From the NCBI GenBank assembly GCA_029688905.1, contig JARULB010000003.1, positions 248,001 to 312,000 of the forward strand: a DNA stretch of 64,000 bases, given 5' to 3'. Within the stretch, counting starts at the first letter, position 1. Each line of letters begins with the position of its first letter. Of the stretch, positions 8,318-21,144 are shown piece by piece. The stretch is from Balneolales bacterium ANBcel1 (GTDB lineage: Bacteria > Bacteroidota > Rhodothermia > Balneolales > Natronogracilivirgulaceae). A model generated the notes under the pieces. It saw nothing but the letters and a program-made list of their open reading frames with translations. It ran no database searches and was not told the origin of the DNA. The position numbers and the translations under genes were made by a program.

Positions 8318-9856
8318 ATGGATATTATTGCAGATCAAATAGCGAGCGTTCACATTCTCAACCAATACTGGCTCACGCTGCTGATGGTCATTTCCATGGT
8401 GCTGGTTTCCCGCACCTTTGTGGCCGGCACGCGCTACTCGCCCATCCTGATTATTGTGGTATTTGGATTGATCATGGGGTACGTGCTTGTGAACACCGGA
8501 CTTGCCACACCCGGCCTGCCCGAATTTCCGATCGTTGAGCTAACCAGCAGGGTGACCATCACCGCCTTGATGGCCTCATTTTTTGTAGGCGGACAAGAGA
8601 TCCGTAAAATTTTTTCCAACCGCGAGATCGATCCGACTGATATTGTGGTACCTTCGTCCAAGGAACTTTTTCTCGGCACCTATGCCACGCAATTTATGTT
8701 TCTGGTGCGCGGCTTCTTTATCCTCACCGGCATTGAGGCGCTCAAACGCCTGATCACCGGGTATTCCACCGGCGAGCCCCTCGACCATTTCTATCCCCTT
8801 CTCGGGTATATCGGCCTGGTGGCTTCCATCATCCTGATCGACCATCGGGCCAAAATCACCAACAAGGCAATGTACATCCGCAAAGGCCTCATTGAAACGG
8901 GTATGATCCTGCTGATGATGGTGGTCGCCTACCACATCTCGGTGTGGATTCGTCCGACTATCGCGCTTCCGGAGATCTTCTTCGCCATGATTCTCTCCGT
9001 GATGCTCGGCATGGTGATGGTTGACTGGAAATTCGGGCCTACCATCCGGTCGCTTCTCTTCGCGGGTATCCCGATCGTTCTGGCGGCCAACTTTATGGTC
9101 GGAGGTTCCCGCATTGCCGAAGCCTTTCAGCTTACGGGCATGACATCCGTGCTCTCGTTCGGCTTTTTCGGCCAGTTGCTGTGGATGTTCGGTGGCCTGG
9201 CCATTCTCATCTTCTTCGGTGCCGCCAACCACATCCGCAATCTTGCTCCCGGTATGGCGGGATCGCTGTCGCACTCCGGCCTCACCGGAGCCTGCACGGC
9301 CGGCGACCTGGGTCCGCAGGCTGCGGTTCGCGCGCCCATCATGATCAACATCCCGTTCATCGGCCACATTTTTGTCTTCTCGATTCTGGCGGCAAGCGCA
9401 ACAACCGGACACCTGATCATCTCCTACACTCTGATCGTTGTGGCCGCCGGCGCCGCGCTAACCATCTGGGCCTTGAAAACCCTGCGGGGCGCAATGGGTC
9501 AGGAGAAACAGGAGATTCGCGGTTTGATGATCTTCTCGCTCGGCTGGCAGCTGGTGGCCGTATTCGGCGGCTTGCTGATGCTCAGCATTTCGGGTATGGG
9601 CCTGGCTGATGCCGTGATGGCCAATGCCTCTGCCATCTCGCACTTCGGCCTCTTTGCCGCCATCCAGGGCGGCATGTTCGGTGCCGAGGCGGCTGGAATG
9701 ATCGCGTTCGTTTTCGCCATGCCGTTCCTGGTGCATCCGCTGGTCTTCGGGATTTTCGGAAAAACCGCTGAAAACGACGGTATCATGCCGGAGAAAATCG
9801 TCTATCTCCTTGCACTCATTGGTGTCGCCGGTGTACTTTACTCCATGGTATTCTAA
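8318..9856 (+). CDS. Unrecognised polytopic membrane protein, transporter-like
   Basis: A 512-aa very hydrophobic protein with an estimated 12-14 membrane helices and no signal peptide. The C-terminal half has small-residue-rich helices interrupted by conserved-looking polar loops: GAANHIRNLAPG, a GLTGACTAGDLGPQAA stretch, and MFGAEAAGMIAF. This resembles the broken-helix architecture of secondary transporters such as the glutamate (GltS) type. I cannot assign a family. A soluble loop near residues 95-120 (REIDPTDIVVPSSKE) separates the first helices. It stands alone between a divergent symporter and the pyrophosphorylase gene. A role in ion or organic-anion transport is inference only. Confidence 0.75.
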   Translation: MDIIADQIASVHILNQYWLTLLMVISMVLVSRTFVAGTRYSPILIIVVFGLIMGYVLVNTGLATPGLPEFPIVELTSRVTITALMASFFVGGQEIRKIFSNREIDPTDIVVPSSKELFLGTYATQFMFLVRGFFILTGIEALKRLITGYSTGEPLDHFYPLLGYIGLVASIILIDHRAKITNKAMYIRKGLIETGMILLMMVVAYHISVWIRPTIALPEIFFAMILSVMLGMVMVDWKFGPTIRSLLFAGIPIVLAANFMVGGSRIAEAFQLTGMTSVLSFGFFGQLLWMFGGLAILIFFGAANHIRNLAPGMAGSLSHSGLTGACTAGDLGPQAAVRAPIMINIPFIGHIFVFSILAASATTGHLIISYTLIVVAAGAALTIWALKTLRGAMGQEKQEIRGLMIFSLGWQLVAVFGGLLMLSISGMGLADAVMANASAISHFGLFAAIQGGMFGAEAAGMIAFVFAMPFLVHPLVFGIFGKTAENDGIMPEKIVYLLALIGVAGVLYSMVF

Positions 9857-9996: not shown

Positions 9997-11022
9997 GTGA
10001 GAGATATTAATATTGCCGTTGTGCCCGTGGCCGGACTGGGTACCCGCCTCCTGCCCGCTACCAAATCACAACCCAAGGAAATGCTGCCCGTAGGCAGAAA
10101 ACCCGTTGTTCAGTATGTTGTGGAAGAACTGGCCCAGGTCGGGGTCGAGAGGCTGCTGTTCATTACCGGTCCGGGCAAAGCTTCCATCGAAAATCACTTC
10201 GACCTCAACCACGAGCTCACCCAGACGCTCAGAAACGAAGGCAAGGAAGAGCTGCTCTCCGAGCTGGCATTTGAAAGAGCTTCCATCCAGTATTTCTTCA
10301 CCCGGCAGCGCCAGCTGCTCGGATTGGGTCACGCCATACTCTGCGCCGAGCCTTTCATCACCAACGAGCCTTTTATTGTCGCCCTGGGCGACTCCATTAT
10401 CGGGATGCATGACCAGAGCAGGATTGTCGAGCGCATGACCGAGTGCTTCCACACTCATCAGGCCGATGCCGTCATCGCCTTCGAAGAGGTTCCGAGAGAG
10501 GAAGTGTTCCAGTATGGAGTCGCCAAGCCGAAACCTCCCGCAAATCCGGCGGGTGACGCTAAATCCGACAATCCGAATGCCGGCCTCCCCGCTTCACAAA
10601 GCGGCAAAACGGACTTGAACGCCCGTTCCGGCGCTGCCGAAGCTTCGGGAACCCCAACGAGCCTCGGTCCGGGTGATTTCTTCGAGATTGAAGACCTGAT
10701 TGAAAAACCGCCGGTTGACGAAGCTCCCAGCAACCTTGCCATTGCCGCCCGCTACATCCTCAAACCCGGTATCTTTGACGCCTTGAAACGGACGCAGCCC
10801 GGTGTCGGCGGCGAAATACAGCTCACCGACGCCATACGGCTTCAAATCCGTGAAGGCGCCAGGGTATACGGCGTGCGTCTGGGCAAAAACGAAACCCGTT
10901 ACGACATCGGCAACTTCGGTTCCTACTTCAGGGCATTCACGGAATTTGCCCTTTCCGACGAAAAGTACGGAGCCGAACTTCGCGAATACCTCAAAACACT
11001 GACCCATGCTGATCATTCGTAG
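9997..11022 (+). CDS. galU: UTP--sugar-1-phosphate uridylyltransferase (GalU-like) with low-complexity insertion
   Basis: A 341-aa nucleotidyltransferase of the GalU family, which makes UDP-glucose (or a related UDP-sugar) from UTP and the sugar 1-phosphate. The N-terminal nucleotide loop VAGLGTRLLPATKSQPKEML, the ALGDSII strand and the C-terminal TRYDIGNFGSYFRAF motif are clear. An unusual hydrophilic insertion rich in Pro, Ala, Gly and Ser occupies residues 178-226, between the strand ending QYGVAK and the FFEIEDLIEKP strand. The start is a GTG; a nearby ATG at 9987 is out of frame. The end overlaps the glucuronokinase gene by 17 bp. Given that neighbour, the substrate may include glucuronate 1-phosphate (inference). 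Confidence 0.88.
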   Translation: MRDINIAVVPVAGLGTRLLPATKSQPKEMLPVGRKPVVQYVVEELAQVGVERLLFITGPGKASIENHFDLNHELTQTLRNEGKEELLSELAFERASIQYFFTRQRQLLGLGHAILCAEPFITNEPFIVALGDSIIGMHDQSRIVERMTECFHTHQADAVIAFEEVPREEVFQYGVAKPKPPANPAGDAKSDNPNAGLPASQSGKTDLNARSGAAEASGTPTSLGPGDFFEIEDLIEKPPVDEAPSNLAIAARYILKPGIFDALKRTQPGVGGEIQLTDAIRLQIREGARVYGVRLGKNETRYDIGNFGSYFRAFTEFALSDEKYGAELREYLKTLTHADHS

Positions 11023-12019
11023 AAAAGCCTGTGCCCGCGCCGGCTTTCTCGGAAACCCGTCCGATGGCTATCACGGAAAGACCATCTCCCTGACCGTCCC
11101 CGTTTTTTTTGCCGAAGTCGTGCTTTACGAATGGGATGACGTCGAAATCGTTCTGGCCGAACAGGACGGGGCCCGTTTCCGGTCGGTTCACGAACTCGCC
11201 AACGATGTCAAGCTGCACGGCTATTACGGGGGGATACGCCTCATCAAGGCGACGATTAAAAGATTTGTCGAATATTGTGTGCAGCGGGACATTCCCCTGC
11301 ACTCCCGGAATTTTTCCATCCGGTACAACTCCACCATTCCCCGCCAGGTCGGTCTCGCGGGCTCCAGCTCCATCATCGTTGCCACCCTGCGGGCATTGAT
11401 GGCCTTTTATGATGTCACCATGCCGAAAGAAGTACAGCCGTCGTTTGTGTTGTCGGTGGAACGGGACGAGCTCGGCATCGCGGCCGGCCTTCAGGACCGG
11501 GTTATCCAGGTGTACGAGGGGCTGGTGTACATGGACTTCTCCAGGGAGGCGGAACAGTCGTCCTGCGGATACAAACACTACCATTACGAGCCTCTTGATC
11601 CAGGCCTGCTGCCACCCGTGTATGTCGCCTATCACAGCGGCCTCAGCGAACCCACCGAGATTTTTCACAACGATATCGGTGGACGCTACCGCCGCGGCGA
11701 ACCCGATGTGGTAAACGCCATGACCCGGTTTGCAGAAATTACCAGGGAGGGGCGGCAGGTGCTTTTGGATGGTGATTTCCAGCGGCTCTCCGAACTTGTC
11801 AATGAGAACTTCGATCTGCGTGACCGCATATCGCGCCTGCCGGAATGGCAGCGCCGAATGGTGTTCGCAGCCAGAGAGTGCGGTGCCAGCGCCAAATTCG
11901 CGGGATCGGGCGGAGCCATTGTCGGGATCTACGAGGGTCCGGAAATGCTCCGGAGACTCCGCGACCGGCTCGACGAAATAGAGGTAAAAACCATCACTCC
12001 CGATATCACCGCCTGCTGA
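11006..12019 (+). CDS. GHMP kinase, glucuronokinase-like
   Basis: A 337-aa small-molecule kinase of the GHMP family. The ATP loop IPRQVGLAGSSS is at residues 111-122, and the C-terminal glycine motif AKFAGSGGAIVG is near residue 300. The N-terminus RAGFLGNPSDGYHGKTIS, the HGYYGGIRL segment and the ELGIAAGLQDRVIQVY segment are, from memory, strikingly like plant glucuronokinase. That enzyme phosphorylates D-glucuronate to glucuronate 1-phosphate. Translational coupling to the upstream pyrophosphorylase (17-bp overlap) fits a two-step route from free glucuronate to UDP-glucuronate. Another GHMP substrate, such as a different sugar acid, remains possible. Confidence 0.82.
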   Translation: MLIIRRKACARAGFLGNPSDGYHGKTISLTVPVFFAEVVLYEWDDVEIVLAEQDGARFRSVHELANDVKLHGYYGGIRLIKATIKRFVEYCVQRDIPLHSRNFSIRYNSTIPRQVGLAGSSSIIVATLRALMAFYDVTMPKEVQPSFVLSVERDELGIAAGLQDRVIQVYEGLVYMDFSREAEQSSCGYKHYHYEPLDPGLLPPVYVAYHSGLSEPTEIFHNDIGGRYRRGEPDVVNAMTRFAEITREGRQVLLDGDFQRLSELVNENFDLRDRISRLPEWQRRMVFAARECGASAKFAGSGGAIVGIYEGPEMLRRLRDRLDEIEVKTITPDITAC

Positions 12020-14069: not shown

Positions 14070-14149
14070 CCGGATTGCATTTCATTCCATGCCGGGAGTC
14101 CGTATTATCAATCAGGCAACTATTTCGTAACCTTTTAATCACACCGGCT

Positions 14150-14833
14150 TTGTCGAAAACGCTGATTCTTGTTGTGGATGATGAGCACGATATCCTTGAG
14201 CTCGTTGAATACAATCTGATTAAACAGGGCCATGATGTGATTATGGCCGACAATGGGGCCGACGGAATTCTTCTTGCTGAAAAGCACAAGCCGAACCTGA
14301 TATTGCTGGATATCATGATGCCTAAAATGGACGGGCACCAGGTATTGAGCCACTTGAAAAGCCATGCCTCGCTTAAAGGCACCCCGGTCATTTTTCTCAC
14401 GGCAAAAAGCGATGAAGAGACGGAAGTTAAAGGGCTGGATCAGGGAGCCGACGACTATCTCACCAAACCCATAAGCATCTCCAAGCTGATGTCCCGTATC
14501 AAGGCCGTTCTGAGAAGAGTGCGGAAGCCAGGGGAAATCCAGTCGGTGATTAACGTCCATGACCTGCAGATAGACCGGGAAAAGTATGTGGTGTTGAAAG
14601 GCGGCAAAGAGCTGCACCTGCCCCGCAAGGAGTTTGAGCTGCTGTTCTACCTGGCCGGAAACAAGGGAAAGGTGCTCAGCCGCGAAACGTTACTCAACAA
14701 CATCTGGGGAAATGTGTATGTCGTTGACCGGACTGTTGACGTGCATGTGCGAAAGATTCGTGAAAAACTGGGAAATAGTTACATTGAAACCGTAAAAGGC
14801 ATCGGGTATCGATTTAAAAATGAGAGCTCCTGA
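14150..14833 (+). CDS. phoB: PhoB-like response regulator (OmpR family)
   Basis: A 227-aa two-domain transcription factor. The receiver domain has the acidic pair D10/D11, the phosphoacceptor D54 (LILLDIMMPK), T84 and K106. A winged-helix DNA-binding domain follows, with PRKEFELLFYLAGNKGKVLSR and the family ending DVHVRKIREKLG...IKTVKGIGYRF-like segment. The TTG at 14150 is taken as the start because the protein then begins directly at the first strand and because the candidate Pho box lies upstream at 14054. No ATG is available in frame. It overlaps phoR by 14 bp and faces the pst-phoU genes, so it should be the phosphate-starvation regulator. Confidence 0.88.
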   Translation: MSKTLILVVDDEHDILELVEYNLIKQGHDVIMADNGADGILLAEKHKPNLILLDIMMPKMDGHQVLSHLKSHASLKGTPVIFLTAKSDEETEVKGLDQGADDYLTKPISISKLMSRIKAVLRRVRKPGEIQSVINVHDLQIDREKYVVLKGGKELHLPRKEFELLFYLAGNKGKVLSRETLLNNIWGNVYVVDRTVDVHVRKIREKLGNSYIETVKGIGYRFKNESS

Positions 14834-15908
14834 GTCCAGCGGCACCCTGTTCCGTCTGGGATACCGGCTGGCGCTGCTTCCGGCAGCCCTTTCGGGTGTC
14901 TTTTCTGCCCTGTCTGTCTATCTTGCCGGATCTTCCCTTACCGTTTCGGTTGCTTCCGGCCTGCTGGTCATGGTCGGCGTGTTGGCGGCTGCGTACCTCC
15001 TTGCCGCCCGTCTACTTCGGAAAAGGCTTGACCGCCTGGAGTCCATTATTTTCAAAAGCTCCCGAAGCAAATTCAAACTATTGCAAAACAAGCCGGAGAA
15101 AGACGAGCTGGACCTGCTTATCCATGAAGCCGAGCAGGCAAGAAACGCGATCCACAAGGAATTCGAGCAAATGGACCAAACCGAGAACTATCGGAAAGAG
15201 TTCATCGGTGACATCTCTCACGAATTGAAAACACCCATCTTCACCGTTCAGGGATATCTGGAGACCCTGCTGGACGGCGCACTGGAGGATCCCGCCGTAA
15301 ATCGCAAGTTTTTGGAAAATGCGATGAAAAATACCGCCAGGTTAACCAACCTGACCAAGGATCTCATGGAGATATCCAAGCTGGAAACCGGTGAGCTTCG
15401 GCCGAACATGCAGCTGGTCCCTCTGAATTCCGTCATCAATGAAGTGCTTGAAACACTACAGTATAAAGCGGATCAAAGCGGCATCACCCTGGAATTCAAA
15501 AAAAGCCGGTCCAATATATTCGCAATTGCCGACCGCAACCAGCTCCGGCAGGTTTTGATCAACCTTGTTGAAAACGCGATCAAATACAACCGACCCGATG
15601 GAAAAGTGACCATCCACACAGACATCTATAGCCTCAATCCCTCCAAAGTTATTGTAACCGTGCGTGATACGGGGATCGGCATCGAAAAGGAAGACATCAA
15701 ACGGGTAACCGAGCGATTTTTTCGGGTGGACAAGTCGCGGTCGAGAGAACAGGGCGGCACCGGCCTTGGGCTGGCCATTGTGAAACACATCCTCGAATCG
15801 CATCACGAGCAGCTTCAGATCGACAGCACGCCGGGCGAAGGATCGGTATTCCAGTTTACCTTAAAAAACGCGGATCACCACCACGAGCGTACTCCCTCTC
15901 CGGAATAG
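14820..15908 (+). CDS. phoR: PhoR-like sensor histidine kinase
   Basis: A 362-aa membrane sensor kinase. Two hydrophobic helices lie at about residues 18-36 and 40-63 with almost no periplasmic loop, as in PhoR. A linker comes next, then the phosphoacceptor H134 in the DISHELKTP box. The ATPase domain carries the N box NLVENAIKYN, G1 DTGIGI, the F box ERFFRVDKSRSR and G2 GGTGLGLAI. There is no recognisable PAS domain, which makes it shorter than E. coli PhoR (431 aa). It overlaps phoB at the start. Convergent phoU follows after only 35 bp. It most likely senses the PstSCAB-PhoU complex rather than phosphate directly. Confidence 0.88.
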   Translation: MRAPESSGTLFRLGYRLALLPAALSGVFSALSVYLAGSSLTVSVASGLLVMVGVLAAAYLLAARLLRKRLDRLESIIFKSSRSKFKLLQNKPEKDELDLLIHEAEQARNAIHKEFEQMDQTENYRKEFIGDISHELKTPIFTVQGYLETLLDGALEDPAVNRKFLENAMKNTARLTNLTKDLMEISKLETGELRPNMQLVPLNSVINEVLETLQYKADQSGITLEFKKSRSNIFAIADRNQLRQVLINLVENAIKYNRPDGKVTIHTDIYSLNPSKVIVTVRDTGIGIEKEDIKRVTERFFRVDKSRSREQGGTGLGLAIVKHILESHHEQLQIDSTPGEGSVFQFTLKNADHHHERTPSPE

Positions 15909-15943
15909 GCGCAAGCCAGGCCGTCCTTTGCCTGTCAATAGCT

Positions 15944-16603
15944 TCAGCTTTTTTCCACATTTTCGACCATTTCCCCGGTCACCAGATAGATAATCCGTTC
16001 ACAAATATTGGTCACCCTGTCGGCGATCCGTTCCAGGTTGTGTGCCGTCCAAATCAGATAGGTGCATCGGGTTATGGTACCCGGCTTTTCAATCATGATG
16101 GAAATAAGCTCGCGGTGCACCTGATGATACAGCTCATCCACTTCGTCATCCTTTGCTGATATTGCGCGCGCCTCCTTGTCGTCTCGTTCCGAATAGGCCG
16201 CCAACGCCTTGTTGATCATTTCGATGGATATCGCCGCCATGCGGGGTATATCGATCAACGGTTTTACGGGGGGCTCTCCATTCAGGCGGATCACAATTTT
16301 GGCGATGCCTGCGGCATAATCGCCCATTCGCTCAAGGTCGGTGATAATATTCAGAACCGCGATGATTTCCCGCAGGTCTTTGGCCACCGGTTGCTGGGTT
16401 GCGATCAGGTTGATGCATTTGTCCTCAATTTCCCAGCGTTTGTCGTTGATCTGCTTGTCACCGGCTTTTACTTTCGCGGCCTTTTCGACATCCCGCTCCT
16501 TCAGCGCATCCACAGAACGTCCCACCGCCGTGGTCACCATTTCCGCCATGGTATACATCTCTTTTTCAATTCCGGAAAGGTGCTTTTCAAATGCAACTCG
16601 CAT
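15944..16603 (-). CDS. phoU: Phosphate signalling protein PhoU
   Basis: A 219-aa all-helical protein with two PhoU repeats. Each carries the family motif for metal and partner binding: INDKRWEIEDKCINLIATQQP...LREI...DLERMGDYAAGIA in the first half and the equivalent EVDELYHQVHRELI...HNLERIADRVTNICERIIYL in the second. PhoU damps signalling from PhoR when phosphate is plentiful. A strong GAGGAG precedes the ATG. It follows pstB on the same strand after a 201-bp gap in which no clear terminator was seen. Confidence 0.94.
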   Translation of the reverse strand: MRVAFEKHLSGIEKEMYTMAEMVTTAVGRSVDALKERDVEKAAKVKAGDKQINDKRWEIEDKCINLIATQQPVAKDLREIIAVLNIITDLERMGDYAAGIAKIVIRLNGEPPVKPLIDIPRMAAISIEMINKALAAYSERDDKEARAISAKDDEVDELYHQVHRELISIMIEKPGTITRCTYLIWTAHNLERIADRVTNICERIIYLVTGEMVENVEKS

Positions 16604-16804
16604 GATTTATGACTCCTCAAAGATTATTATTTAAAATCGTGCAGATTCGTTGGTGCGGATGATTATATGGCCAGACTACCGCGTACCGGCCGGCTCATTT
16701 GCTGTAGATTCACTATGCTTTTTTTATGACCGGCGTTTGGAAGCAACACAAAGCGAATATCAACATTATATTACTACGTATGGTGATAAAAGCCTAAAGT
16801 CGAA

Positions 16805-17833
16805 TCATCCGAATCGGCCGGTGATGTATTCTTCTGTTCGGGATTGCTTCGGATTGGTGAACAGGGTATTGGTTTCCCCGGCCTCCACCAGCTCCCCGAC
16901 ATAAAAAAACCCGGTCTGATCGGAAATCCGCGCCGCCTGCTGCATGTTATGGGTAACTATGACAATGGTAACCTGCTTTTTCAATGTGTGGATCAGCTCC
17001 TCAATCTTGCTTGTGGATTGCGGGTCAAGTGAGCTGGTAGGTTCATCCATCAACAAGACTTCCGGATCTACCGCGAGTGCCCGGGCGATTGAAAGCCGTT
17101 GCTGCTGGCCGCCCGACAGGCTGGAACCGGGACTCTTCAGCCGGTCTTTGACTTCATCAAACAAAGCGGCTTGTCTGAGTGCGCGTTCGCAGACTTCGTC
17201 CAGTAACTTCCTGTTCCTGATACCAACCAGTTTGAGTCCGGCCACCACATTATCATATATCGACATTGTCGGAAATGGAGTCGGTTTTTGGAACACCATA
17301 CCGATGCGACGGCGGATGAGCACGGGATTGACATCATCCCCATAGATATTTTTCCCATCCAGGAGAACCTCGCCGGTCACTTTCGCCGAGCGAGTGAGGT
17401 CGTGCATCCGGTTCAGAGCCCGCAAATAGGTGGTCTTCCCGCAACCGGAGGGGCCGATCAGGGCGGTGACCTGTTTATCCTTCAGTGAAAGTGATACATC
17501 CATGACTCCGACGACCGATCCGTATTTGACCGTCAAATTTCTGGCCTCCAATCGAGTCTTCCTTTCGGCTGAGCTGTCTGGGTTTTCTTTTAATGAGGTG
17601 TTTTGAGACACGGGTTTCCGGGTTATGTTTTCTGTATTGGGTTTACTGTCTGATATCTTCCGCACACTCAATCGGGGTGGCTCCTGGAGCTTGGTGTCCG
17701 GCTCCTTATGTAATTTGAATGCAGTAGTATCCGATGGTTCACACTCTGCTTTTCGTTGCTTTAACAGTCCGGGTGTGACCGGATGACAAAACGGCGTTGT
17801 TTCAGTTGCAGATAATGTATTTGATGTTTGCAT
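16805..17833 (-). CDS. pstB: Phosphate ABC transporter ATP-binding protein PstB with N-terminal extension
   Basis: The ATPase of the high-affinity phosphate importer. The core from about residue 94 to 342 is standard PstB: Walker [10 protein letters not shown] (127-135), the PstB-type [15 protein letters not shown], the signature [15 protein letters not shown], Walker B VLLMDEP and the switch His in IVTHNMQQA. The first 93 or so residues are an extra hydrophilic, low-complexity segment with no recognised fold; most PstB proteins are about 250-270 aa. No other Met lies before the core, so the extension is either real or translation begins at a non-ATG codon. It lies 49 bp after pstA. Confidence 0.93.
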
Positions 17834-17882
17834 ACAGAGTTTTACCGCTTCTTCTTTTTCCAGGTGTTGTTTCTGGTTTGAA

Positions 17883-18743
17883 CTATCCGCTTTTTTGTCT
17901 TGTGGCCAATCGTGCGGTAATAAAAGTGAACATCACAAATGCCAGAAGCACTATGGCGGCCGCCCAGCCCATGGTATGCCAGTGCGAGTACGGACTGATG
18001 GCCAGGCTGTAGAGCCGCTGGGGCAGGGTGTCGGCCGGACCCAGTATCATCCCCAGCCAATGATTCGGCAGATAGTTGTTGCCGAACGATGTAAACAGAA
18101 GAGGCGCGGCCTCCCCGGCGGCGCGGGCAAAGGCGATAAGTATTCCGGTTACCAATCCGGTTTTCGCAGCCGGCATAACGGTTGACAAAACCACACGCCA
18201 GCGCGGGAGTCCGATGGCCAGCCCGGCTTCCCGTATTGACCATGGAATGGACATCAGCGAGCTTTCCGTGGTACGCGCCACAATGGGAAGCATCACAAAG
18301 GAGAGCGCCACCCCTCCGGCCAGGCCGGAAAACGTACCCATCGGCTTGACAATCAGTACAAAGGCAAGCAGTCCCTTCAGGATGGCCGGCATGCCGTTCA
18401 GCGTGTCATTGAGAATGCGCAGAGGCGGATTCAGCTTGTGATCCGGGTATTCGGAAAGCATGATACCGGCTCCCATCCCGATGGGAACGGCGATCATCAA
18501 GGCCATGAAATCGACAACCATGGTACCGAGAATGGTGTGAACGAGTCCGGTGGGCCGTCCCTGCATCGCCCGCGACGGCGACCCGAGCTCCTGGGTAAAG
18601 AAATCCCAGTTCAGTGCCCCGATACCGTTTACGATTACGTGGACGATAATGATGACCAGCGGAAGCAACACCAGTATGGTGCTTACCACCAGCAGGACTT
18701 CCATGATCCGGTCACGAATATTTCGTTGCAACATCGTTCTCAT
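17883..18743 (-). CDS. pstA: Phosphate ABC transporter permease PstA
   Basis: A 286-aa inner-membrane permease with six predicted helices. The ABC permease coupling segment is visible as [35 protein letters not shown], with the EAA-like helix and Gly typical of the PstA/PstC pair. The late [16 protein letters not shown] segment is the PstA hallmark. Its ATG overlaps the pstC stop by 4 bp (ATGA), which indicates translational coupling. Confidence 0.94.
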
Positions 18744-19744
18744 ACGACCTGCCCTCCTGTTATGGAATACTTCCGCGTCAGGTATGCCGCAAGCAGATTG
18801 ACTACCAAGGCGATGATAAACAGCGTAAATCCAATCGCCATCAGGCTGGAGAGGTGGAGCGATTCGACGGCTTCACGGAATTCGTTTACGATGACCGACG
18901 GCATGGTAGCACCGGCTCCCAGAATTGAAAAGGGGAGTGTGTTCTTGTTTCCGATGAGCATGGCAACCGCCATGGTTTCGCCGATTGCTCTGCCCAGCGA
19001 CAATATGGCGCCAGCCATGATTCCGCCGCGGGCATAGGGAATCACCGCCATTCGGATCACCTCCCAGCGTGTGGCACCGAGAGCCCGGCATGCCTCGCGT
19101 TGCTCGACCGGCACCGATCGGATGGCATCTTTGGTGAGGGCCGTTGTATAGGGAACGATCATTATGGCCAGCACCACTGTGGCGGTAGCCATTCCGTAAC
19201 CCATGGGATTACCGAGAAGGGGCAACAGGGCCGGGTGATTCATATCCGCCCATTCAAATACCGGCATGTAAACCGTTTCACGCAGCCACGGGGCCAGGAC
19301 AAAAATCCCCCAGATTCCAATCACAACACTTGGGATGGCGGCAATCAGCTGTACCAGGTTATCTATGATGCCGGAGAGCCAGCGCGGGGCGTATTCCGCT
19401 GAAAAAATGGCCACGGCTATGGCCGGGAAAAAGGAAAGCACCAGCGCCAGGGCACTTGTTACTATGGTTCCAAACAGAAACGGAAGAGCCCCGAAAGTCA
19501 GCCGGACCGCGGGGTCCCAGGTGGTACCAGTCACAAACTGAAAATAACCGAACTGCTGAAATGAGAGTCTACCCTCGCCATACAGCACAACTGCCATGGC
19601 TCCGGCAAGCAGCATAATCGAAATACCCAGAGCAACTACCACAGTGGAAAAAATACGGTCTCCAAGCCATCGGTATATGATCGAGGGCGGTTCTTTTAGC
19701 AACTGCCTGGTTTGTTGTGAAATTTCGGAATCCTTTGTCTTCAT
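18740..19744 (-). CDS. pstC: Phosphate ABC transporter permease PstC
   Basis: The second permease of the phosphate importer, 334 aa from the chosen ATG. A GTG 18 codons upstream is possible but less likely. It has six helices, the PstC segment LVQLIAAIPSVVIGIWGIFVLAP, the coupling helix TKDAIRSVPVEQREACRALGATRWEVI and the downstream GRAIGETMAVAMLIGN. The 40-residue cytoplasmic N-terminus is polar. It follows pstS, from which it is separated by a hairpin terminator, and is coupled to pstA. Confidence 0.94.
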   Translation of the reverse strand: MKTKDSEISQQTRQLLKEPPSIIYRWLGDRIFSTVVVALGISIMLLAGAMAVVLYGEGRLSFQQFGYFQFVTGTTWDPAVRLTFGALPFLFGTIVTSALALVLSFFPAIAVAIFSAEYAPRWLSGIIDNLVQLIAAIPSVVIGIWGIFVLAPWLRETVYMPVFEWADMNHPALLPLLGNPMGYGMATATVVLAIMIVPYTTALTKDAIRSVPVEQREACRALGATRWEVIRMAVIPYARGGIMAGAILSLGRAIGETMAVAMLIGNKNTLPFSILGAGATMPSVIVNEFREAVESLHLSSLMAIGFTLFIIALVVNLLAAYLTRKYSITGGQVV

Positions 19745-19789
19745 GTAATAATAGGTGAACTTGTTAAATGCGATCGGTAATGCCGTACG

Positions 19790-19836
19790 AAAAAACACCG
19801 TGACAGAGGGGCTTTCGTTTGCCCTCCGCCACGGTG
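19790..19836 (-). terminator. Intrinsic terminator between pstS and pstC
   Basis: On the minus strand the arms CACCGTG and CACGGTG, extended by a GGAGGGC/GCCCCTC-type pairing, enclose a short A-rich loop and are followed by TTTTTT. It starts about 15 bp after the pstS stop and ends before pstC. Such an internal terminator would make pstS mRNA more abundant than mRNA for the permease genes, as expected for a binding protein. Confidence 0.75.
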
Positions 19837-19849
19837 ATGGTTCACGCTG

Positions 19850-21004
19850 TCAGATCAGTTGTCTCTCTGCGAGTATCTGTTCTCCGATTAATTCACCACG
19901 CCATTTAATCTGGCGGATCATATTGATTGCACGTTCCAGTGCTGCCTCGGGTATTTCGGCATATCCAAGCGACTCCGCCAAATTCTGGCCATCGGTAACG
20001 CTCCAAACCAGAAACCGCACCAGTTCTTCCGCCTCATGGCGATTGCTGACGGCATTATTGGCGTCAAGGTTTTCATAGACCAGCATCCAGGCAAACCCGG
20101 CAATGGGATAGCCGTATTCGGCCGGGGTATTGGTGAACAGCACCCTGGTGTCCTCCGGCAGTTCAATATTGGCAGCCTCGGTTGTTGCCGCAAAACTCGG
20201 TTCGATCACATTGCCCGACGCGTTGATGACCGATCCAAAAGACATGTCGTTCAGCAGAGCGTATGAAAGGCTGTTATAGCCGATTGCACCGGGAGTGTTA
20301 ATTACGGCTCCGGCCACTCCTTCATTCCCATTTCCCCCGATGCCTGTTGGCCAGTTCACGCTGGTGGCATATCCTACCTGCTCACGCCACTCGTCGGATA
20401 CGCGGGAAAGGAAGCTGGTCCAGACATTGGTGGTCCCGGAACCGTCCGACCGGTGCACTACGGTAATGGGTGTGGAAGGCAGGTCTGTATTCGGGTTCAA
20501 TTCGGCAATTCCGGGATGATTCCAGCGAGTGATCTTCCCCATGAAAATTTCCACGAGGAGGTTTCCGTCAAACACCAGTGTCTCGGTCACACGAGGGAGG
20601 TTATAAGTGGGCACCACATCGGCCAGGGTGATCGGGATATTAAAAGCCCGTCCACCGGTCGCTTCCTCAATGTTGCGCATCACCTCATCGGAGAGAAACG
20701 CTTCCGACATGCCGAACATCACGGTTTGTTCCATGAATTGGCGAATGCCGCCTCCGGAGCCGATGGACTGGTAGTTGACGGTTATCCGGTTACTGGTGAG
20801 GTCACGGTAATCATCCGCCATAGCGGTAATCAACGGGGCCGGGAAAGTGGCTCCGGCTCCGAGAATATCAATTCTGGCACTGGATGCGGCTCCGCCGGTT
20901 CGGTCACCCCGCAGTTGTCCGGGAGTTTCACCACCTCCATTTCCACACGCGAAGGTCAGAAACAGAAGGCTCAATGCCGTCAGATAGAATTGTGAGAATT
21001 TCAT
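19850..21004 (-). CDS. pstS: Phosphate-binding protein PstS, probable lipoprotein
   Basis: A 384-aa periplasmic phosphate-binding protein. Residues 1-18 form a lipoprotein-like signal ending in LTFAC (a loose lipobox), followed by a Gly-rich linker. Phosphate-contacting motifs are GAGATFPAPLI near the N-terminus, QSIGSGGGI, and HRSDGSGTTNVWTSF in the middle. The ATG at 21004 is chosen because it opens the signal peptide; an upstream start at 21067 would add 21 polar residues. First gene of the pstS-pstC-pstA-pstB unit, with a candidate Pho box about 140 bp upstream. Confidence 0.94.
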   Translation of the reverse strand: MKFSQFYLTALSLLFLTFACGNGGGETPGQLRGDRTGGAASSARIDILGAGATFPAPLITAMADDYRDLTSNRITVNYQSIGSGGGIRQFMEQTVMFGMSEAFLSDEVMRNIEEATGGRAFNIPITLADVVPTYNLPRVTETLVFDGNLLVEIFMGKITRWNHPGIAELNPNTDLPSTPITVVHRSDGSGTTNVWTSFLSRVSDEWREQVGYATSVNWPTGIGGNGNEGVAGAVINTPGAIGYNSLSYALLNDMSFGSVINASGNVIEPSFAATTEAANIELPEDTRVLFTNTPAEYGYPIAGFAWMLVYENLDANNAVSNRHEAEELVRFLVWSVTDGQNLAESLGYAEIPEAALERAINMIRQIKWRGELIGEQILAERQLI

Positions 21005-21144
21005 AGGGTATGTTTTCTTTCCGTTACAGGAGTTGTTCCGATTGATTGTATCAGGCTTGGTCATCATGCAAAAAGGCAGATTCGCTTTGTTTCATCCTTA
21101 TAACCTGTGCTGAAAATGCAGGTATGCAAGTTTAGGAACCCCTC

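Follow-up and report, generated by a model that had tools for sequence, protein, structure and literature searches.

UDP-xylose, UDP-galacturonate and many polysaccharides of the cell surface derive from UDP-glucuronate, for which bacteria are generally thought of as having a single source, the oxidation of UDP-glucose. The locus described here, on contig C3 of a 3.3-Mb genome that is 98% complete, raises the question of whether a bacterium may also make it from free glucuronate, as an earlier note on the window (the whole stretch of 64,000 nucleotides that was analysed) had proposed for two overlapping genes. Sequence comparison makes it quite likely that the two genes form an operon for such a two-step route. 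The GHMP kinase would phosphorylate glucuronate at its anomeric oxygen with the gamma-phosphate of ATP. From the resulting glucuronate-1-phosphate and UTP, the co-translated GalU-like enzyme would form UDP-glucuronate and pyrophosphate; the former could then pass to UDP-glucuronate decarboxylase (yielding UDP-xylose), 4-epimerase and glycosyltransferases. We infer both chemical reactions, the choice of substrate and the direction of flux from the comparisons that follow.

The first gene of the pair (positions 9997 to 11022, forward strand) starts with GTG and encodes a GalU-like nucleotidyltransferase of 341 residues (PF00483, E = 1.6e-24), while the second (11006 to 12019, forward strand) starts with ATG and encodes a GHMP-superfamily sugar-1-kinase of 337 residues (PF00288 and PF08544). 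The 17-bp overlap reported earlier (11006 to 11022, forward strand) is exact to the base, and an overlap of the same length is found in loci from four phyla. Kinase and transferase are two open reading frames, with a stop codon and the overlap, not one polypeptide. Both motifs quoted in the earlier note were found in the second gene, on the forward strand, as kinase family signatures: RAGFLGNPSDGYHGKT near the N-terminus (residues 11-26; 11036 to 11083) and HGYYGGIRL (residues 71-79; 11216 to 11242). The first is nearly invariant among 35 bacterial relatives, with R11, G16-G21 and G24 invariant, and in the second G72 and G76 are invariant across the 35 sequences. The GHMP phosphate-binding loop IPRQVGLAGSS (11336 to 11368, forward strand), located by alignment, would be the ATP loop, as in GHMP kinases generally; P112, G116 and G119-S121 of the kinase are invariant in the same 35 sequences, as are G300-G303 of GHMP motif 3, GSGGA (11903 to 11917, forward strand).

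Directly 5' of the pair lies a gene for a multi-pass membrane protein of 512 residues (8318 to 9856, forward strand), which matches nothing in Pfam or NCBIfam at 0.01 and is not kept beside the pair in other loci. Farther downstream, the stretch from 14075 to 21067 resembles, by eye, a phosphate-regulation block with a PhoB/PhoR-like pair, PhoU and Pst transporter genes.

The GHMP-kinase domains (GHMP_kinases_N and GHMP_kinases_C in Pfam, E = 8e-12 and 3e-5) and the ATP loop are present in the kinase according to Pfam, alignment and fold, and its predicted structure (pLDDT 89.8) has the GHMP fold. No curated family claims the protein at NCBIfam cut-offs: its best match there is the heptose-7-phosphate kinase HddA (NF049969), with 53 bits where 600 are required, and its score of 49 bits against mevalonate kinase (TIGR00549) is below the cut-off of 163. 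Searches of the PDB with the single sequence and with a profile returned only distant HddA and mevalonate kinases (E about 1e-10, weak alignment), and a fold search with the model placed it nearest to sugar kinases, namely heptokinase WcbL and galactokinase. Clustering with other GHMP families had been put forward earlier as a test of the assignment, and the kinase falls outside the mevalonate, homoserine, galacto- and heptose-kinase families. Its relatives in alignment A1 are 40-79% identical. Arabidopsis glucuronokinase 1, compared in an approximate sequence and hence as a lead only, is 43% identical to the kinase over 324 residues (E = 4e-81). In the kinase tree, which was built without the genome's other three GHMP proteins, this approximate sequence joins the window-type bacterial clade (98/95) and not the diverged type described below, again as a lead only. 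We propose that the 337-residue kinase is very probably a glucuronokinase.

The partner contains only the Pfam families PF00483 and PF12804, its fold is closest to GalU structures in a fold search, and most conserved GalU residues are kept. However, its score against the galU model TIGR01099 (283 bits) lies below the cut-off of 326.8, as do those of window-type partners at large (about 281-305 bits), and window-type partners carry GDS-IIG where GalU has its GDD/ADD segment. A low-complexity insertion of about 45 residues (10537 to 10671, forward strand), predicted to be disordered (pLDDT below 50 at residues 188-222), is found in none of the other 29 partners of alignment A2. The partner is the sole close GalU homologue in its genome. 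Kinase-free relatives are without this GalU type, which argues that it is not a housekeeping enzyme; we propose that it is very probably a UTP:glucuronate-1-phosphate uridylyltransferase. The order is different in Larkinella (L050, 6001 to 7973), where the kinase comes first and the GalU downstream of it, at 377 bits, is above the GalU cut-off; kinases of this family thus have partners of more than one transferase type.

Far from being peculiar to one genome, the pair occurs widely among bacteria. When about 85,000 species genomes were scanned, 49 kinase loci came to light, the relatives belonging to Balneolota, Chloroflexota, Planctomycetota, Verrucomicrobiota, Acidobacteriota, Desulfobacterota/delta-proteobacterial lineages and Bacteroidota (Larkinella), and the closest ones retrieved to Balneolales/Balneolaceae. 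The GalU-like partner adjoins the kinase in about 43 of the 49. Among 38 related loci at which the gap was measured, the two genes overlap in 21 and lie within 20 bp in 29, and the identical overlap of -17 bp recurs in Balneolota, Chloroflexota, Verrucomicrobiota and Acidobacteriota. An overlap this frequent and this constant across phyla is not due to chance, and its identity in four phyla suggests that the pair has moved between lineages as a unit. In the 60 nearest genomes, which belong to the same order, kinase and GalU-like enzyme occur in exactly the same seven, with one extra weak match (83.6 bits) in G044, and no neighbour besides the partner is conserved across phyla in the kinase loci compared. 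The pair thus appears to be a dedicated, mobile unit. The linkage has exceptions, since no pyrophosphorylase lies within 1.5 kb of the kinase in 6 of 18 planctomycete cases, Thermoguttaceae included. Among 300 Chloroflexota genomes, a true window-type kinase was found only in the starting genome, and the weak matches in this phylum form a separate GHMP clade that the tree places outside with full support.

One clue to the product of the pair comes from Planctomycetota. An even draw of 294 genomes, with at least 90% completeness requested, yielded 18 with a window-type kinase, and the window genome's own UgdH served as the dehydrogenase query (identity 42% or more). UDP-glucose dehydrogenase is present in 6 of the 18 kinase-bearing genomes and in 29 of 30 kinase-free ones (Fisher p = 2.9e-6; 7.5e-5 if the two partial matches are scored against the hypothesis), values that overstate the significance because the genomes are phylogenetically non-independent; in the kinase tree, the kinases of dehydrogenase-less genomes nevertheless fall on some eight branches. 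Six related kinase-bearing planctomycete genomes outside the draw have zero members of the dehydrogenase superfamily. Diverged kinases occur in about 25 of the 294 genomes (the one that was aligned, from L052, shares about 35% identity with the window kinase), and dehydrogenase is present in 12 of 12 genomes with a diverged kinase.

Of the 12 kinase genomes that lack the dehydrogenase, 11 retain a homologue of UXS, the UDP-glucuronate decarboxylase. The UXS signature segments are present in ten proteins from such genomes, inside and outside the draw, and the homologue of lowest identity, the one compared with the PDB, matches human UXS1 at E = 1e-118, while no other enzyme comes within 1e-60. 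Genomes that have kept UXS and lost UgdH need another source of UDP-glucuronate, and the kinase pair readily suggests itself as that source. The pair is apparently able to replace UDP-glucose dehydrogenase, and in many Planctomycetota it has probably taken the place of the classical route.

Gene context also points to glucuronate. At three Thermoguttaceae-type loci a gene for the glucuronate isomerase UxaC lies 3' of the kinase on the same strand (PF02614, E = 4e-192). In L042, L043 and L051, from Thermoguttaceae and a related planctomycete of animal guts, the kinase is followed by UxaC and the pyrophosphorylase is not nearby; no member of the UDP-glucose/GDP-mannose dehydrogenase superfamily was found in these three genomes. 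Within the 60 relatives of the window's organism, UxaC is present in 6 of the 7 genomes with the kinase and in 14 of the 53 without it (p = 0.004), an association that loses significance when only the window's own family is considered (p = 0.15). The diverged kinase is followed by a shorter NTP transferase in all inspected loci but one (L136, at a contig edge). One planctomycete open reading frame of 554 residues (L146, 21 to 1685) has the kinase first, fused to an NTP transferase. In the planctomycete G113 (L175, 2661 to 5201), the diverged kinase abuts the short NTP transferase, and a divergent gene for myo-inositol oxygenase (PF05153, E = 5e-93) lies 58 bp away, open reading frame to open reading frame. 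It is possible that this cluster encodes a complete bacterial route of the plant type, starting from myo-inositol and ending at UDP-glucuronate. The oxygenase is found in 6 of 60 kinase-bearing and 0 of 20 kinase-free genomes, numbers too few for significance, and is absent from the window's genome; since most kinase genomes are without it, a plant-like supply from inositol is not general.

The genome of the window's organism has uronate metabolism of its own. A cluster on C6 reads UxaC-KdgK-KdgA-UxuA (UxaC assigned by HMM, the other names read from sequence) and adjoins an apparent polygalacturonase and pectate lyase, also read from sequence. UgdH is present, its nearest PDB chains being UDP-glucose dehydrogenases, and its gene overlaps the UXS gene on C1; an apparent UDP-glucuronate 4-epimerase, read from sequence, is encoded on C2. 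Because UgdH is present, the pair would here be a second route, a salvage of glucuronate alongside the classical one in an organism that also has a cluster for hexuronate catabolism, and it is not implied to be necessary. The earlier view of the pair as a different route from UDP-glucose oxidation therefore stands as regards a dedicated pair, but in this genome the route is an extra one.

Could the pair activate another uronic acid, above all galacturonate derived from pectin, to give UDP-galacturonate? The polygalacturonase and pectate lyase beside the UxaC cluster would fit, UxaC also acts on galacturonate, and a 4-epimerase could bridge UDP-galacturonate and UDP-glucuronate. We nonetheless consider this unlikely, and the rival is weakened by the planctomycete genomes that keep UXS, whose substrate is UDP-glucuronate, after loss of the dehydrogenase, as well as by the myo-inositol oxygenase, a producer of glucuronate, beside the cousin kinase. 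The plant galacturonokinase, moreover, is a galactokinase-like protein of another type.

Two further readings seem very improbable. One would make the pair a heptose-type system like HddA/HddC, or part of another sugar-1-phosphate pathway for cell-surface glycans, as might be expected from the top curated and PDB sequence matches of the kinase (HddA) and from its top fold match (WcbL). However, the kinase reaches less than a tenth of the HddA cut-off, the weakly matching Chloroflexota GHMP kinases stay outside its clade with full support, the partner is GalU-like and not HddC-like, and the genomic context is that of uronate metabolism. The other, to which we give equally little credence, regards the partner as the housekeeping GalU, making UDP-glucose beside an unrelated GHMP kinase; its likeness to GalU in sequence and fold and the lack of a second close homologue in the genome are in keeping with this. 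Against it, the partner is missing altogether from kinase-free relatives, nine window-type partners rescored against TIGR01099 gave 281-302 bits (cut-off 326.8), and its overlap with the kinase gene is preserved from phylum to phylum.

Activation of glucuronate to UDP-glucuronate, the activity predicted for the pair in the earlier note, is supported as the preferred reading by the loss of dehydrogenase with UXS kept, by the adjacency and co-occurrence of UxaC and by the myo-inositol oxygenase beside the cousin kinase. On balance, we lean somewhat towards a broader picture in which many bacteria make UDP-glucuronate without UgdH by means of a glucuronokinase-pyrophosphorylase operon that has spread horizontally, a compact cluster of myo-inositol oxygenase, kinase and pyrophosphorylase exists in at least one planctomycete, and the bacterial family may be ancestral to the glucuronokinases of plants and animals. 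If true, a glucuronate-fed route that is present in several phyla and accompanies loss of UDP-glucose dehydrogenase would alter the pathways predicted for Planctomycetota and other groups, offer two-enzyme, NAD-free tools for the production of UDP-glucuronate, and point to a possible bacterial origin of the pathway in plants and animals. The open-access literature searched yielded no description of a glucuronokinase from bacteria or of such an operon; a langur gut metagenome paper lists KEGG K16190 (GLCAK) without comment. The chemistry is known from plants and from the zebrafish enzyme, and what would be new is a different, dedicated pyrophosphorylase in an operon that is widespread in bacteria.

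Among known systems, HddA and WcbL share the GHMP fold and are the nearest solved structures to the kinase, but they are only about 19% identical to it in structural alignment and the kinase is far below the family cut-off. GalU (TIGR01099) resembles the partner in fold and most conserved residues, whereas window-type partners fall below its cut-off, carry the GDS-IIG segment and are co-inherited with a kinase. The plant glucuronokinase GlcAK (EC 2.7.1.43; At3g01640 in Arabidopsis) is likewise a GHMP kinase, and its approximate sequence, 43% identical and taken as a lead only, contains the RxGFLGNPSDxYxGxT and GYYGGxRL segments. Plants combine it with UDP-sugar pyrophosphorylase (USP) in a two-step logic (PMC3938481, PMC6329318), and this part of the parallel drawn in the earlier note holds. 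The other part does not, because the bacterial partner is a dedicated GalU-type enzyme (PF00483) of about 300 residues encoded in the same operon, with no eukaryotic UDPGP-type domain in Pfam, and not a broad UDP-sugar pyrophosphorylase; the window's genome also differs from the plant route in having no myo-inositol oxygenase. In animals, DrGKUP of zebrafish and Xenopus is a bifunctional glucuronokinase/putative pyrophosphorylase whose kinase activity has been measured (PMC3938481). Animal GKUP is one protein of 619 residues with an N-terminal transferase domain of 260 residues, and only stand-alone transferases were reported from bacteria and archaea (PMC3938481). DrGKUP and the pair described here both join a kinase of the glucuronokinase family to a bacterial-type nucleotidyltransferase. 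In the window, however, the two are encoded by overlapping genes and the GalU-like transferase is longer, while the planctomycete fusion in L146, with its kinase first, has the reverse domain order of DrGKUP.
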